A stretch of 58,869 nucleotides of DNA from Bacteroidota bacterium (GTDB taxonomy: Bacteria > Bacteroidota > JABWAT01). Each line of letters opens with the position of its first letter. Within the stretch, counting starts at the first letter, position 1. The notes beneath the pieces are model-generated. The model ran no database searches. It was not told where the DNA came from and saw only the letters and a program-made list of their open reading frames with translations. Below are positions 4,331 to 58,869 of this stretch, piece by piece. A program made the translations under genes and the position numbers. The stretch covers positions 1-58,869 of the forward strand of contig JABWAT010000014.1 of assembly GCA_013360915.1 (NCBI GenBank), in the 5' to 3' direction.

Positions 4331-4421
4331 GACATCCTCCCTGAACAGATATCAGAATGTAGGATTTTTTCCCGATTGGATTGTCTTTTATTCGGATTTT
4401 TTAATCCGGCAGGTTGGATTT

Positions 4422-4779
4422 GTGATTGGTGATTGGTGATTGGTGATTGGTGATTGGTGATCGAAAAACCCGGCCCCGGGACAGAAATCAGTGATCAGAG
4501 ATCAGAAATCAGTGATCAGAAAATACAAGTGATTTGTGATTGGTGATTAGAAAAAACCGGACCCTGAGGTGAAAGTTTACCCCGATGAAGTCGGGGAAGG
4601 GACAAGGTTTTTTCAATCACTGGTGATCAGAAAATACAGGGGATTGGGGATTGGTGATCGAAAAACCCGGACCCCAAGTGATCTGACCGAAGGGAAGATA
4701 TTATCGAGGGGACAAGGGTTTTTCCAGTTACGCGTGACGAATGACGAGAAAATACCGGTGATTCATGATTGGAAAACCC
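4422..4779. repeat. Heptamer arrays and terminal-inverted-repeat modules
   Basis: Six GTGATTG heptamers (4422-4463) run into GAAAAACCC (4463-4471). Five heptamers alternating CAGAAAT, CAGTGAT and CAGAGAT follow (4482-4516), then AGAAAATAC (4518-4526). A second module spans 4606-4668, with AGAAAATAC at 4629-4637. A third spans 4716-4779, with AGAAAATAC at 4747-4755. The stretch before 4606 repeats positions 1-25 of the window. The modules are joined by GGACCC...GGGACAAG linkers. Confidence 0.75.
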
Positions 4780-4788
4780 TCCGCCCTT

Positions 4789-4807
4789 CCCTCTCCGGCG
4801 GAGAGGG
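4789..4807. repeat. Perfect 8-bp palindrome hairpin
   Basis: CCCTCTCC and GGAGAGGG pair perfectly around the loop GGC. It has no following T-run on either strand, so it is not a standard intrinsic terminator. A shorter relative sits at about 553-573 next to the same heptamer and REP-like neighbours, so the three parts seem to travel together. Confidence 0.6.
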
Positions 4808-4826
4808 AGACATTCTGTCTTCGGTC

Positions 4827-4917
4827 TTCTGAATTCTGAATTCTGAATTCTGAATTCCTATCCTGTCTCCTGACTCCTGTCTCCTTACTCCCGGTCCCTG
4901 AGCGGAGCCGAAGGGCC
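4827..4917. repeat. TTCTGAA and TCCTGTC heptamer arrays plus REP-like hairpin
   Basis: Four TTCTGAA units (4827-4854) are followed by five of the TCCTGTC/TCCTGAC type (4861-4895). They merge into GGTCCCT-GAGCGGAGCCGA-AGGGCC (4893-4917), whose CCCT and AGGG arms pair. The same succession, TTCTGAA-like units then CTCCTGACTCCTGTC, appears at 16818-16865, so the order of arrays is itself repeated. Confidence 0.7.
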
Positions 4918-16671: not shown

Positions 16672-16782
16672 CCATGCCGGGTGGAATCGAATTTTGTCGG
16701 CTAGCGGTGGTTTCTGCTAAAATCATGGAATTTTTTAAAAACATGTTGATAGCCACTCACCCTTCCCGGCCGTTAGGGTGAG

Positions 16783-16845
16783 ATTCCGTATTCCGTATTC
16801 CGTATTCCGTATTCCGTATTCTGAATTCTGAATTCTGAATTCTGA
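16783..16845. repeat. Heptamer array switching unit from ATTCCGT to ATTCTGA
   Basis: Five ATTCCGT units (16783-16817) pass without loss of phase into four ATTCTGA units (16818-16845), then ATTCCCT and a CTCCTGACTCCTGTC tail. The change of unit within a continuous 7-bp phase suggests the period, not the base sequence, is what is propagated or maintained. The array lies between the 3' ends of convergent genes. Confidence 0.85.
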
Positions 16846-16867
16846 ATTCCCTCCTGACTCCTGTCTT

Positions 16868-38805: not shown

Positions 38806-40248
38806 ATGAGTGATTCCAAACCCGACGCATGGAGCAATCCGGGCCCCGGACGGCTGTTTGCCGGTAAATTACCACGCGATTGGTTCTTTAAAATACTCGG
38901 TTTTTCCCTTCTGGCCCTCGCTGGTTTACCGATGGTGCTTTTCCATGACCAGGCAGGGATGGATTACCAGTCTGCGGGCGCGCTTTACATTCTCGCGCTT
39001 GCCGTTTATCTATGGATTTCCAGTCTGATTCCACATGGAATCACGGCGTTGCTCATACTGGTACTGGTTCCTGTTCTGAATATTATGCCTTTAAACCAGA
39101 CACTGGCAGCCTTTGGAAACACAGCAGTTTTCTTCCTTCTGGGTGTTTTTATCATGGTGGCAGCGGTTATTGATTCGGGACTGGCCCGCCGGATTTCCCT
39201 GCTGTTTCTGAAAAGCAGCGAAAACACGCTGGGTAAGGTTTACGTGAGTATCTACACGGGCTGCTTATTCATGTCGTTTCTGATGCCCGAACACGCCGTG
39301 GCAGCCATCTTTTTCCCCATCGTCCTCGAAATTTCAAAACTGCTTGGCGAGAAAACCGGAAACCGGCCCATGGGAATGCTGTTGTTTATGGGCATGGCCT
39401 GGGGGGCCGTTGTCGGGGGAATCGGCACCTTACTGGGCGGCGCGCGTGCTTCCCTCGCCATAGAATTTCTGAAAGACATGACCGGAAAAACAGTCACCTT
39501 CTGGGACCATGCCTCGGTCGGCGTTCCGGTTGCCCTCATTCTTGGGGTTGTGGTTCTGGTCGTCTTTCCCTTCATGATCCGCGGCATTTCCCTCCGTCAT
39601 AAACTCGATCCCGGAGTGATTCATGCCATGAGAAGAAATCTGGGCCCCATGTCTTTCCGCGAAAAACGGGTGGCTGTTATATTTGCCGCTGTTATCCTTC
39701 TGTGGATGGTTGCAGGAGCCTGGTTGCATCTGGCAACCGTCAGCCTGTTGGGTGCCGTCCTCATGTTTGTGGCCCGGGGGGTTGAATGGAAAAAAGTGGA
39801 TGAACTGGTCAACTGGAATGTGATTCTGATGTATGGCGGGGCCATTGTTCTCGGATATGTACTGAATCATACCCAGGCGGGCAGTCTGCTGCTGAAAGTA
39901 TTCCCCGATTCCTGGCTGAACAGTGAAATCACCATGGTTCTTATATTTGCCGTGGTCACCATTACCCTGACCGAGTTCATGAGCAACGCTGCTGCTCTGA
40001 CCATCGTGTTACCCATTGTTCTGACAGCGGCCATTCAGCACAATCTCGATGTGATGATCATTTTCTACAGCATCACACTGATTTCCGGACTCGCTTTTGT
40101 CTTCCCGATGAGTTCTCCTCCCAACGCCATTGCCTTTTCCAGCGGAACCTTCACCGTTAATGACATGGTTGTCAAGGGAATTATTGTGAGCATCATTTCA
40201 TTGATTGTTGTGTTAACCTATTTATTTATCAGGTTTAATCATGTCTGA
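38806..40248 (+). CDS. SLC13/DASS-family transporter, probable sulfate importer
   Basis: A 480-residue transporter with about eleven hydrophobic helices. The repeat hairpins are [15 protein letters not shown] and [14 protein letters not shown]. In typical DASS proteins both hairpins carry Ser-Asn-Thr; here the first reads Pro-Glu-His and the second Ser-Asn-Ala, so substrate or cation binding may differ. Position between cysQ (2-bp gap) and cysC (8-bp overlap) strongly suggests it supplies sulfate to the pathway. Other DASS substrates, such as dicarboxylates, cannot be excluded by sequence. Confidence 0.85.
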
Positions 40249-40858
40249 AATCAAACAAAAAGGGGTCACCATCTGGCTGACCGGCTACAGCGGGGCTGGA
40301 AAATCGACCATTGCCGACCGTCTGACCCAGGAACTGACCAACCGACGCGTTGAACTGGAGGTGCTGGATGGTGATGTGGTCCGGACCAATCTTTCAAAGG
40401 GGTTGTCCTTTTCCCGTGAAGACCGGGATATCAATATACTCCGCATCGGGTTTGTGGCAGAACTGCTCACCCGGCATGGAGTGGTGGTGATCGTATCGGC
40501 CATTTCACCTTATCGTGCAGTCAGGGAAGCGGTACGGGAAAAAATCAGACATTTTGTTGAAGTATTCGTGAATGCACCGCTCGATGTGTGTGAACAACGG
40601 GACGTAAAGGGACTCTATAAAAAGGCGCGGGCTGGTGAGATCAAGGCGTTCACCGGAATTGACGATCCGTATGAACCGCCACTGAAACCTGAAGTGATCT
40701 GCAATACCGACAAGGAAAGCCTCGACGAGTCGGTGAATAAAATTCTCAGGACCCTCGAAGTCCTCGGCTACATCCCGGAAAGTGCCAACAGTCTGCTGGC
40801 CCAGGGAAATGACAGTCTTGTAAAAAATCATCTGAAATCTATGGGGATCAAATTCTGA
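40241..40858 (+). CDS. cysC: Adenylyl-sulfate (APS) kinase
   Basis: A 205-residue kinase that phosphorylates APS to PAPS, the sulfate donor. The P-loop is GYSGAGKS (15-22). The substrate motifs [10 protein letters not shown] and [10 protein letters not shown], and the family signature [23 protein letters not shown] (broken here for length: [20 protein letters not shown]), are all intact. It overlaps the transporter gene by 8 bp and ends 1 bp before cysD. A second, degenerate APS-kinase domain is fused to CysN in the same operon. Confidence 0.96.
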
Positions 40859-40859
40859 C

Positions 40860-41747
40860 ATGAGCATGGATTACCTCGATCAACTTGAACAGAAATCGGT
40901 TCATATCTTCCGCGAAGCATACGCCAATTTCAAAAACATGTGCATGCTGTGGTCCATCGGCAAGGACAGTACCGTTCTGCTCTGGCTGGCCAGAAAAGCC
41001 TTTTATGGTCACGTTCCCTTTCCGCTGGTGCATATCGATACCAGTTACAAGATTCCCGAAATGATTCAGTACCGCGACCGGCTGGCACTGGAATGGAACC
41101 TGAATCTGGTCTACGGAGAAAACCGCGAGGCGCTCGATGCAAAAATGACCTTTCCCGATGGAAATCTGGACCGGATCGGTTGCTGCAGGGCCCTGAAAGC
41201 AGAAGCCTTGAAAAACACGCTTTCCGGTCGCTGGCCCCGGTACCGCATGAACCACCAGTTGGGAAAATATGAACGCGACACCAACACCGAGCCGTATACC
41301 GGCGTTATTGTGGGAGCCCGCGCCGATGAGGAAGGTTCACGGTCAAAAGAGCGGTATTTCTCGCCTCGTGACAAGGAAAGCTCCTGGGACATCGGCGATC
41401 AGCCACCCGAATTCTGGAATCAGTTCAAAACCGATTTCGCCCCCGGAACCCACGTCAGGATTCATCCCCTGCTCGACTGGACCGAACTGAATATCTGGGA
41501 ATATATCGAACGCGAAAACATTCCCACCGTTTCGCTGTATTACAATCAGGGCGATGGATCACGCTACCGGTCGCTGGGATGCGGACCCTGTACCACACCG
41601 ATTAAGTCGGATTCCAGAAATGTTCAGGAAATCATTGAGGAATTACGCGTAGGGAAATTGGCGAATGTGGCCGAACGGTCCGGACGGGCTCAGGATAAAG
41701 ATGATGGCGGCGGACTTGAAACCCTTCGCCGCGAAGGATACATGTAA
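40860..41747 (+). CDS. cysD: Sulfate adenylyltransferase subunit 2
   Basis: A 295-residue catalytic subunit of ATP sulfurylase, which makes APS from sulfate and ATP. The PP-loop is [20 protein letters not shown]. Family marks [25 protein letters not shown]-like CCRALKAEA, and [10 protein letters not shown] are present and the length is standard. CysN, its GTPase partner, is normally the next gene, but here 704 bp of repeats and a four-helix-bundle gene lie between. Confidence 0.97.
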
Positions 41748-41753
41748 GGGGTA

Positions 41754-41809
41754 ACTGGCTACTGGCTACTGGCTACTGGCTACTGGCCGCTGGCTACTGG
41801 CTATTGGCT
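41754..41809. repeat. ACTGGCT heptamer array after cysD
   Basis: Eight 7-bp units, four perfect ACTGGCT followed by ACTGGCC, GCTGGCT, ACTGGCT and ATTGGCT. It begins seven bases after the cysD stop. Its unit is the reverse complement of AGCCAGT, the unit phase of the arrays at 42006-42075 and 42459-42500. Confidence 0.9.
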
Positions 41810-42005
41810 GTGGGAGTGGTATTTAATGATTTGGTTAGAAGGAAGTTATCCCCCGATTTTCCCTTCCTTTTTCGAAGAAGGAATACAATGGCCATCCATG
41901 ACAAAATTGATGTAGTTAATTAGTTCAGATGCTTAAATTTAAAAAAGTCTTTCTTTCATGAACACAACTTCTCATTTTATTATTCCGTCTATACTTTCCA
42001 AAATT

Positions 42006-42075
42006 GCTACCAGTCAGCAGCCCGTACCCAGCCGCCAGTTGCCAGAAGCCAGCACCCATGCGCCAGTAGCCATCA
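42006..42075. repeat. GCCAGTA-type heptamer array before the four-helix-bundle gene
   Basis: Ten units in phase: GCTACCA, GTCAGCA, GCCCGTA, CCCAGCC, GCCAGTT, GCCAGAA, GCCAGCA, CCCATGC, GCCAGTA, GCCATCA. The last two plus one base (GCCAGTAGCCATCAA, 42062-42076) recur at 42472-42486 with one mismatch, inside the cysN coding start. Confidence 0.85.
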
Positions 42076-42097
42076 ATCCTTATCCACTTAACTAACG

Positions 42098-42448
42098 ATG
42101 GGTGACTATCAACAGCTGGAAGTATGGCAACTCTCTCACCAATTAGTATTGGATGTGTATCGGGTAACAAAGAAATTTCCAAAGGAAGAAGAATATACAC
42201 TGAAATCCCAATTGCTTCGGTCGGTCATTTCGGTTCCAAATAACATCGCAGAAGGAAAAGGCAGGCAAAGTCCGAACGAGTTACGGCAGTTTCTGTACAT
42301 ATCACGAGGATCTCTGCAGGAAACTGAGTATTTGTTATTTTTATCAACTGACCTCGGATATATCAAAACTGAAGATTTTAACAGATTAAAAGAAAGCATT
42401 GACTCAATTGGTAAAATGCTAAACCGATTCATCCAAACAATTCAATAA
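42098..42448 (+). CDS. Four-helix-bundle protein (S23 / rRNA intervening-sequence type)
   Basis: A 116-residue helical protein. LEVWQLSHQLVLDVYRVTKKFP, RSVISVPNNIAEGKGR and FLYISRGSLQETEYLL are hallmarks of the S23/TIGR02436 four-helix-bundle family first noted in 23S rRNA intervening sequences and related to the Avd accessory protein of diversity-generating retroelements. Its role is unknown; positively charged members bind nucleic acid. The gene is clearly A+T-richer than its neighbours, interrupts the cysD-cysN pair, and is flanked by matching heptamer arrays, all signs of insertion as a mobile unit. No reverse transcriptase is present. Confidence 0.9.
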   Translation: MGDYQQLEVWQLSHQLVLDVYRVTKKFPKEEEYTLKSQLLRSVISVPNNIAEGKGRQSPNELRQFLYISRGSLQETEYLLFLSTDLGYIKTEDFNRLKESIDSIGKMLNRFIQTIQ

Positions 42449-42451
42449 ATT

Positions 42452-44287
42452 ATGTCAACCAACAGCCAGCAGCCAGTAGCCATTAACCAGAACCCATCCA
42501 CCCGCCTGTCACTCGTCATTGCCGGACACGTGGATCACGGAAAAAGCACCGTGATCGGACGATTGCTGGCTGACACCAACAGTCTGCCCACAGGCAAACT
42601 GGACATGGTCCGCGCCAATTGTGAACGGAACTCCAAGCCTTTCGAGTATGCCTTTCTTCTCGATGCACTGAAGGATGAACAATCCCAGGGGATCACCATT
42701 GACTCGGCCCGGATCTTTTTCAAAAGCAAGAAACGCGAATACATTATTATCGATGCACCCGGTCACATCGAGTTTCTAAAAAATATGATTTCAGGTGCTG
42801 CACGCGCCGAGGCCGCCCTGCTGGTAATTGATGCGGCTGAAGGCGTTCGTGAAAACTCCCGCCGCCATGGTTACATGCTCTCCATGCTGGGAATCAGGCA
42901 AATCACGGTCCTGGTCAATAAGATGGACCTGGCCGATTTTGATAAGGCCCGTTTCGATTCAATTGAAAAGGAATACCGTGCCTTCCTGACCGAAGTGGGA
43001 ATCGTGCCCTTGTCCTTTATTCCCATCGCTGCCCGCGATGGTGTGAACATTGCCAGCCGCGCCACCAAAGAAATGCCGTGGTATTCTGGTGACACCGTTC
43101 TGGATGCACTCGACCGTTTTCAGAAGGAGGCACTCCCCCTCGACAAGCCTTTCCGGATGCCGGTTCAGGATGTGTACAAATTCACTGCCCATGGCGATGA
43201 CCGGCGGATTGTAGCCGGAACCATTGAAACCGGTCGCGTGAGAGTCGGCCAGGATGTGATTTTCTATCCATCAGGAAAACACAGTACCATTAAGACCATC
43301 GAAGGATTCAACACGCCACAACGGACAGAATCGGAAGCTGGTCAGGCGGCCGGATTTACCCTGACGGAACAGATTTACGTCAAACGTGGTGAAATCGCCG
43401 TTCTCAGCTCAGATATCCGCCCGAAAGTCAGCTCCCGGATCAAGGTGAGTCTGTTCTGGCTTGGCAAAAAGCCAATGGTGATGAAGCGGGACTATTTCCT
43501 GAAGCTGGGTACTGCCAAAATCAGCTGCCGGCTCGAAGCAGTGCACAAGCTCATCGACGCCTCCACTCTCGATTCCCGTCAGGATGCCGACCGGATCAAT
43601 CGTCATGATGTGGCCGAATGTACGATCAAGCTGTCCAAACCCATGGCCTTCGATCTGGCCGACACCATTGCAGCCACCAGCCGGTTCGTTATCATCGATG
43701 ATTATGAAATCACCGGGGGCGGAATCATCCGGGAAGATTTACCGGATGGTCAGGGATGGGTCCGTGAAAAAGTATTCCTCAGAAATTACAAATGGGAACA
43801 AAGTTCCATCCAGCCGGAACGCCGTGCAGTTAAATACAATCAGCGTCCGACCCTTCTTATCATGACCGGTCCGAAATCGGCTGGTAAAAAGACACTGGCC
43901 CGGGCTCTGGAAGCCGATCTTTTCAATGATGGCCGCATCGTGTACTTCCTCGGAATCGGTAACGTGATTTATGGTATTGATGCTGATATCAAGGGGAAAT
44001 CTGATACCCGGGAAGAGCACCTGCGCCGTTTGGGAGAGGTGGCTCATATCATGCTTGAAAGCGGAGCCATTTTGATTGTAACCGCCGTGGAACTTACCCA
44101 GGCCGATCTGGAAATTATCAAGACCTGCGTGGCGAGCGAGCAGATCGAGGTGGTCTGGATGGGCGATTACCGTTCCACCGATGTGACCCCCGACCTTATG
44201 CTTCCCACCCATCCGGATGCCATCGAAGGAGTGGCTCAGATCAAGGATCTGCTGGTGAACAAGAATATCATCTTCAGACCGTGGTAA
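42452..44287 (+). CDS. cysN: Sulfate adenylyltransferase subunit 1 with degenerate C-terminal APS-kinase domain
   Basis: A 611-residue GTPase subunit of ATP sulfurylase; GTP hydrolysis drives APS synthesis by CysD. The EF-Tu-like G-domain has GHVDHGKS (25-32), DAPGHIEF and NKMDL, followed by beta-barrel domains. From about residue 465 a CysC-like domain is fused. Its P-loop is GPKSAGKK (473-480), but the DGDxxR motif and the GLYKKAR segment of true APS kinases are missing, so it is probably inactive or repurposed. Codons 3-17 are built from 7-bp repeats (42459-42500), so the natural N-terminus may originally have begun nearer TRLSLVIAG. It starts 3 bp after the four-helix-bundle gene. Confidence 0.94.
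42459..42500. repeat. Heptamer array inside the cysN coding start
   Basis: Six in-phase units: CCAACAG, CCAGCAG, CCAGTAG, CCATTAA, CCAGAAC, CCATCCA. They encode the low-complexity N-terminus [12 protein letters not shown] of CysN, and belong to the same unit family and orientation as 42006-42075. Confidence 0.85.
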
Positions 44288-57914: not shown

Positions 57915-58730
57915 ATGCCCACTACCATTATCGATGCCAGCCGGAACCGGCTTTCCCTGAACCTGAAAGAACTCATTGCCTACCGCGATCTCATGTTTAC
58001 GTTGGCGTACCGTGATCTGCGCGTCCGTTACGCACAAACGTTTCTTGGTTTTCTCTGGGCCTTCCTACAGCCGGTGGTCACTCTGACCATTTTCACCCTG
58101 GTTTTCGGGCGTGTGGCACGGGTCGATACCGGATCGGTTCCCTATCCTCTGTTTGCTCTTTGCGGAATGACTGCCTGGAATTACTTTTCCTCGGTCATGA
58201 GCGGCGCCGGGTCATCTATCATCGGAGCTCAGGGCATGATCTCGAAAATTTACTTTCCCCGCCTCGTCATTCCCCTTTCAAAATCGCTGGTGTCCCTGGT
58301 CGATTTTCTGCTGGTCTTTGTTCTTATGATCGCGCTGATGATCTGGTATGGTGTTTCTCCTGGTGCTTCCATCGTTTTTCTGCCTTTGTTTCTGGCATTG
58401 GCCCTGATCTCGGGTTTGGCGGTGGGTATCTGGCTGAGTGCCCTGACGGTGCGTTTCAGGGACTTTCAGCACATCATTCCCTTTGCCGTTCAGTTGGGGA
58501 TGTATGCCACCCCGGTGGCCTACCCCGCCAATCTGGTCCCTCCTGATCTGCAGTTCTGGTATTTTCTGAATCCCATGGCCGGTGTGGTGGAAGGATTCCG
58601 CTGGTCCCTGCTCGGCGGACCCGAACCCGGTATTATGATTTTTGTATCGGCTTCGGTGGTTGTTTTACTCCTCATCGCCGGCCTGTATTATTTCAGGAAG
58701 GTCGAGTCGGTCATGGCGGATATTGTTTAA
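57915..58730 (+). CDS. ABC-2 type polysaccharide export permease, copy 2 (Wzm-like)
   Basis: A 271-residue permease of the same family (LAYRDLRVRYAQTFLGFLWA, QLGMYATPVAYP), with six helices. The frame extends 12 codons upstream into the previous gene, but the ATG at 57915 gives the usual N-terminus. Two permeases next to each other, with one ATPase in the window, could form a heterodimeric channel or serve a second ATPase beyond the window edge. Confidence 0.9.
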   Translation: MPTTIIDASRNRLSLNLKELIAYRDLMFTLAYRDLRVRYAQTFLGFLWAFLQPVVTLTIFTLVFGRVARVDTGSVPYPLFALCGMTAWNYFSSVMSGAGSSIIGAQGMISKIYFPRLVIPLSKSLVSLVDFLLVFVLMIALMIWYGVSPGASIVFLPLFLALALISGLAVGIWLSALTVRFRDFQHIIPFAVQLGMYATPVAYPANLVPPDLQFWYFLNPMAGVVEGFRWSLLGGPEPGIMIFVSASVVVLLLIAGLYYFRKVESVMADIV

Positions 58731-58732
58731 AT

Positions 58733-58869
58733 GGTGATTGGTGATTGGTGATTGGTGATTGGTGATTGGAAAAACCCGGACCCTGAGGTTCTCGAAGGGT
58801 GAGGGGTTTTTCCCAGTTAAAAGTTAAGAGTTAAGAGTTAAAAGAAAATACATGTGATTGGTAAAACCC
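58733..58869. repeat. Heptamer arrays, REP-like hairpin and terminal-inverted-repeat module at window end
   Basis: Five GGTGATT units (58733-58767) start two bases after the permease stop. Then come GGAAAAACCC, the hairpin ACCCT-GAGGTTCTCGA-AGGGT (58780-58800), GGGTTTTTC (58804-58812), four AGTTAAG units (58815-58842), AGAAAATAC (58843-58851) and a closing TAAAACCC at the window edge. The same order of parts as at position 24-102. Confidence 0.8.

Follow-up and report, generated by a model that had tools for sequence, protein, structure and literature searches.

S23 four helix bundle genes between inverted heptamer arrays look like the cargo of small operon-borne cassettes

S23 'four helix bundle' genes look as if they were carried by small mobile cassettes that insert into operons. 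Around approximately 136 non-redundant S23 genes, the upstream and downstream arrays of 7-mers (sometimes 8-mers) mostly share one unit in inverted orientation, with the unit varying by locus, and at orthologous addresses in sister genomes the S23 gene and both arms can be replaced en bloc. We know of no role for S23 genes, which are widely annotated in bacteria under the four helix bundle name, and heptamer arrays, noted in cyanobacteria and elsewhere decades ago, have had no owner assigned to them. In the window (the whole 58,869-nt stretch of DNA that was analysed), an S23 gene separates cysD from cysN. We lean slightly towards a joint reading of this locus, in which the DNA between the stop codon of cysD and the start codon of cysN belongs to a widespread family of exchangeable cassettes resembling the intervening sequences (IVS) of 23S rRNA.

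The cysD–cysN segment and other S23 genes of the genome

The features of the locus are as follows.

40860..41747, + strand: cysD, sulfate adenylyltransferase small subunit, the upstream host gene (PF01507; NF003587 CysD)
41754..41809, + strand: array 1, ACTGGCT x8, 7 bp past the cysD stop (TRF score 91; fold)
42006..42076 (approximate), + strand: array 2, degenerate AGCCAGT-type units, complement of array 1 (sequence; TRF, 42015-42072)
42098..42448, + strand: S23/TIGR02436 four helix bundle gene, 116 aa (PF05635, E 1e-41; TIGR02436, E 1e-39)
42457..42492 (approximate), + strand: array 3, AGCCAGT-type units, entering the 5′ end of cysN (sequence)
42452..44287, + strand: cysN with a C-terminal APS-kinase-like domain, the downstream host gene (profile match)

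The sequence-only reading of the window had described 704 bp between cysD (end 41747) and cysN (start 42452), occupied in order by an ACTGGCT array, a complementary array, an A+T-rich S23 gene and a third array, and this arrangement was upheld, with a G+C content of 0.379 in the S23 gene versus 0.526 in cysD and cysN. Two 15-mers that it quoted as bracketing the gene are present at 42062-42076 and 42472-42486; the two are direct repeats of one another, and each is inverted relative to array 1, against which arrays 2 and 3 gave inverted scores of 21 and 24, respectively. The S23 gene passes the curated cut-offs of both families (142 bits versus 33.8 for TIGR02436 and 135 bits versus 24 for PF05635). 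Array 3 lies in the first codons of cysN, giving CysN an extra N-terminal stretch (window 42452-42500); in Anabaena sp. 90, too, the right arm falls within the first codons of cas4. Among the host genes themselves, a stand-alone APS kinase gene (cysC, 40241-40858) is found upstream of cysD despite the APS-kinase-like domain of CysN (43800-44287), which is partial and has a P-loop, GPKSAGKKT, that looks degenerate.

A PF05635 profile search of the genome found six S23 places, the window copy and five others, three of which are bordered by arrays of their own. One lies between an AGTTAAA and a TTTAACT array, ahead of a ribonucleotide reductase gene (L002), and another between argJ and argB, with a GAATTCA array and its complement TGAATTC (L003), the gene names at both places having been read by eye. 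The third is a broken gene with an internal stop (L004), which has GTGACGA upstream, a decayed partner downstream, and a neighbour that looks like argG. No arrays were found beside a divergent 164-aa S23 copy next to miaA (L005), and the array detector found none at a weak PF05635 match (L006). The heptamer unit thus belongs to one cassette alone, the three bordered copies and the window copy each having a different one, and as a rule the array downstream of S23 is the upstream array inverted.

Heptamer arrays are also common without S23, several of them near REP-like hairpins. A three-unit ACTGGCT pattern with at most 3 mismatches gave 68 overlapping matches in the genome and its reversed control gave 0, so these arrays are not a product of chance; most of the matches have no adjoining S23 gene. 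At a permissive setting, 13 arrays were called in the window, array counts throughout being based on the window, the sampled stretches and the genome pattern search. Solo or clustered arrays at window 4409-4894, 16777-16856 and 58724-58869 have the units GATTGGT, CAGAGAT, TTCTGAA, ATTCCGT, TGGTGAT and AGTTAAA and have REP-like hairpins of the CCCTGAGCGGAGTCGAAGGG type in between. Arrays of this S23-free kind may have been left behind by lost cassettes, or they may form a class of their own.

Matching inverted arms across phyla

For a first set of 60 stretches around S23 genes (66 genes), taken from the same genome and its relatives in the phylum, arms were scored by SW comparison of the upstream 300 bp with the reverse complement of the downstream 300 bp. 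The mean for own pairs was 20.6, versus 11.0 for mismatched pairs, and the best of 5000 permutations reached 12.56. A GTDB set of 92 loci on 80 contigs, covering Bacteroidota, several proteobacterial lineages, Omnitrophota, Anaerolineae, Gastranaerophilales and others, gave 20.15 for own pairs versus 11.04 for mismatched ones (best of 10000 permutations, 12.37). At plasmid loci from Cyanobacteriota, Riemerella and Gemmatimonadota, 8 out of 13 had matching arms with a score of at least 17. The matching-arm pattern recurs in Bacteroidota, Cyanobacteriota, Gemmatimonadota and proteobacterial lineages; some S23 genes have no detectable matching arms (L048, L074, L218, L220 and L222), and when the arms of the argJ|argB orthologues were compared in a matrix, the own arm was clearly best in 3 of 5 rows. 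For conservation of unit order between the two arms, an alignment-chosen test looked strong, but the unbiased version proved weak (mean z 0.56, t 4.6), and no weight is placed on it.

The strongest periodicity of 206 arms was at lag 7 or 14 in 159 and at lag 8 or 16 in 33 (28 excluding lag 15 etc.), with no periodicity peak in random segments. Arrays on both sides were found at 25 of 65 S23 genes versus 7 of 193 ordinary genes with at least 50 bp of intergenic DNA on each side (p 1.6e-11), and the random-segment control for arrays gave 0.03%. Simple chance and local repeat richness are ruled out by the permuted partners together with these gene controls. A less simple account would be passive repeat dynamics, with slippage growing intergenic heptamers, hairpin template switching homogenising inverted copies, and S23 riding in repeat-rich gaps; the many S23-free arrays in the window's genome, and the fast change of array units and lengths between sister species, are what it would lead one to expect. 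Yet ordinary genes with two-sided intergenic DNA have paired arrays ten times less often, the association between S23 and arrays holds across phyla with independent units, and S23 itself lies inside the swapped unit, where its dS is saturated. We therefore regard passive dynamics as improbable.

Exchange between relatives and setting in operons

The sequence-only reading had offered two origins for the locus, insertion into a pre-existing array or an element carrying array ends, and had raised the possibility that S23 is mobilised with, or might act on, such arrays. At the cysD|cysN junction of one relative (G003) the S23 gene comes from a separate lineage (29% identity) and its matching arms differ from those of the window, and at that of a second (G002) there is no S23, only a solo AATAACG array. 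These differing junctions, and the own arrays at other copies in the genome, indicate joint mobilisation of S23 and arrays, so an element carrying array ends is favoured and mere insertion into an array has become the less favoured of the two origins. The occurrence of arrays away from S23, and the retention of an array at some S23-free sites, speak against the simplest form of this idea.

At argJ|argB in G002 and G003, the dS of S23 is 1.95, with most flanking genes at 0.2-0.3 and two at ~0.7; it is 2.21 in L050/L052, with flanks at 0.2-1.0, and saturated in the second cassette of L069/L070, with flanks mostly at 0.33-0.47. The divergent tract extends from at or near the upstream stop codon to at or near the downstream start codon. 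Unlike these swapped pairs, the S23 genes of L066/L067 are 99% identical. In L080/L083 the cassette is nearly identical (S23 dS 0) while the flanking genes are mostly at ~0.3, a near-identity that points to recent exchange; since the exchanged tract (G025/G037) extends into flanking genes, homologous recombination is one possible route there.

Counterparts of filled sites that have no S23 were found in L070 (versus L069), L202 (versus L053) and, at cysD|cysN, L039 (versus L038). The cas6|cas4 gap is filled by S23 in Anabaena sp. 90 and S23-free in Dolichospermum, with flanks 98.7/99.3% identical, and in five further cyanobacteria it spans ~5-70 bp. Where an S23-free site has close flanks, its sequence is never cleanly ancestral; L202 retains heptamers of another unit, and the Dolichospermum site carries a different filler. 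Pairs of filled and S23-free sites showed no target-site duplication and no exact excision product, and a search of relatives for the flank of L065, run without a positive control, gave no match.

S23 cassettes are sense-strand insertions in operons, as both neighbours are co-directional with S23 at 116 of 129 non-redundant loci and both opposed at only 3. The host operons include cys, arg and nrd in the window's genome, and cas6|cas4 and cmr2|cmr3 in cyanobacteria. In Picosynechococcus sp. PCC 7003 the cassette sits in a type III-B CRISPR operon as cmr2|S23|cmr3 (L219 1486-1842), and a Nostoc plasmid has an antisense S23 cassette between ribonucleotide reductase genes (L221 1495-1863). Clusters of three S23 cassettes within ~6 kb occur in L069 and L070 (G037 and G025), one of them having decayed in G037, relative to G025, by an in-gene deletion.

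If S23 were instead a permanent member of its operon that helps to regulate the host, with the arrays as local regulatory sites, one would understand why some sites are long-lived, with argJ|S23|argB common to four genomes of the family, and why the S23 reading frame is open at several orthologous sites. The relatives' cysD|cysN junctions, holding a non-orthologous S23 (29%) or none, speak against such residence, as do the occurrence of S23 in unrelated operons (cys, arg, nrd, cas, cmr) and the broken copies L004, L060 and L096, and we consider it quite improbable. The narrower case of a fixed, array-free operon gene is ruled out by the same junctions and by the arm matching in the GTDB set.

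Relation to known elements and a possible mechanism

The window S23 protein is homologous to 2gsc (E 1.2e-20), and S23 is a homologue of pentameric barrel proteins and of Avd of diversity-generating retroelements. The likeness to Avd is one of fold family (bAvd, E 9e-7; NF033474, E 7e-9; phrog_3206, E 1e-12), the Avd profiles scoring below cut-off on the window S23, and the S23 cassette differs in having no reverse transcriptase (RT). Membership in a diversity-generating retroelement was rejected, as the genome's only RT match is at G000 C15:31371-31952 and S23 is on C2, C4, C6, C14 and C16, and so was mobility driven by a resident RT, the S23-rich genomes G025, G037, G034, G028 and G003 having no PF00078 match. 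S23 had no PADLOC match as a defence gene and no match in phage records as phage cargo, and both roles were discarded.

The Coxiella IVS is 428 nt long, with an S23 ORF, 28-bp terminal inverted repeats and excision by RNase III, and carries tandem GACAGAT heptamers, in strain-variable copy number, immediately 5′ of that ORF (PMC4990558). The operon cassettes share with the 23S rRNA IVS of Coxiella and Leptospira terminal inverted repeats that enclose an S23 ORF in their loop, sense orientation in a host transcript, a size of ~0.4-0.7 kb, and signs of horizontal transfer. They differ in that the cysD–cysN cassette sits in a protein-coding operon, outside any 23S rRNA gene, that the arms are themselves arrays of period 7/8, each locus having a unit of its own, and that several divergent copies occur per genome; RNase III excision would apply to them by analogy only. 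The cyanobacterial STRR and Beggiatoaceae TAACTGA repeats are also intergenic tandem 7-mers, those of Beggiatoaceae mostly just upstream of start codons, but they were reported as direct repeats that may have a regulatory role, inverted gene-flanking pairs not being a defining feature, and S23 or four helix bundle proteins are not mentioned in that text (PMC4679880). As for IS/MITE-type elements, S23 cassettes do have inverted arms, but the arm sequence is not conserved between copies.

In the predicted RNA fold of the window locus, the first units of array 1 (41755-41774) pair with array 3 (42471-42490) and so enclose S23, and the remainder of array 1 (41776-41817) pairs with array 2, its length enabling it to pair with both. 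The fold z was -3.4 for the window (20 shuffles), -8.9 for L002 and -5.3 for L003, with the arms paired. By analogy, we propose that operon cassettes and the 23S rRNA IVS are one kind of element, placed in different host transcripts. The plan of the cassettes would be a heptamer array, an S23 gene and the inverted heptamer array, making up an exchangeable unit of ~0.5-0.75 kb that lodges sense-wise in intergenic gaps of operons. The cassette would be co-transcribed with its host operon, and both arms could pair into a stem around the S23 ORF; processing of this stem, by analogy by RNase III, may allow the insertion to be tolerated, like the S23 intervening sequence in 23S rRNA. The S23 protein would most likely bind the RNA or ssDNA that forms the stem in its own cassette, and would serve maintenance or mobility of the element, not sulfate assimilation.

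A G·U wobble test on the arms of 93 loci did not support selection for pairing in sense RNA, since sense-strand mismatches were A·C in 178 cases versus G·U in 119, the opposite of what such selection would produce. This excess leaves room for a DNA-level mobile element, with the arrays as terminal inverted repeats recognised as folded ssDNA or by recombination, S23 as a DNA-mobility factor, and transcription serving S23 expression only. Such an element would account for cassettes moving as units with both arms, for the absence of bias towards sense-strand wobble, and for the 29-bp perfect inverted repeat that brackets S23 in L069. However, the cassette has no transposase or integrase, no target-site duplication was seen, and the terminal sequence varies between elements, which is unusual for protein-recognised terminal inverted repeats; the strong sense orientation in operons would likewise be unexpected for an orientation-blind transposon, barring selection or a promoter need. 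On balance we judge this explanation unlikely, though worth keeping in view.

Both DNA strands of each cassette have the same 7-8-nt repeat at their 3′ ends, and its units begin with AG if the cassette is read inwards from the 5′ arm. Templated end addition, as at telomeres, would produce an arrangement of this sort. The arms could conceivably be written, not inherited, with S23, as a relative of Avd, belonging to a machinery that copies a short private template onto both cassette ends, which would mark and mobilise the cassette, and solo arrays being scars; we give this speculation very little credence.

An open-licence full-text literature search returned no paper tying S23 genes in general to inverted heptamer arrays, and none for TIGR02436; the general link is unreported in the open-licence papers searched, which is not proof of absence. 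The IVS-like reading joins S23 genes and heptamer arrays into one testable object that is inverted, swappable and operon-borne, and would turn the rRNA intervening sequence, so far a peculiarity of ribosomes, into one case of a general class of elements that live in operons. The cassettes would also be a source of rapid change at gene ends, as in cysN and the cas4 of Anabaena sp. 90, which gain arm-derived N-terminal residues.
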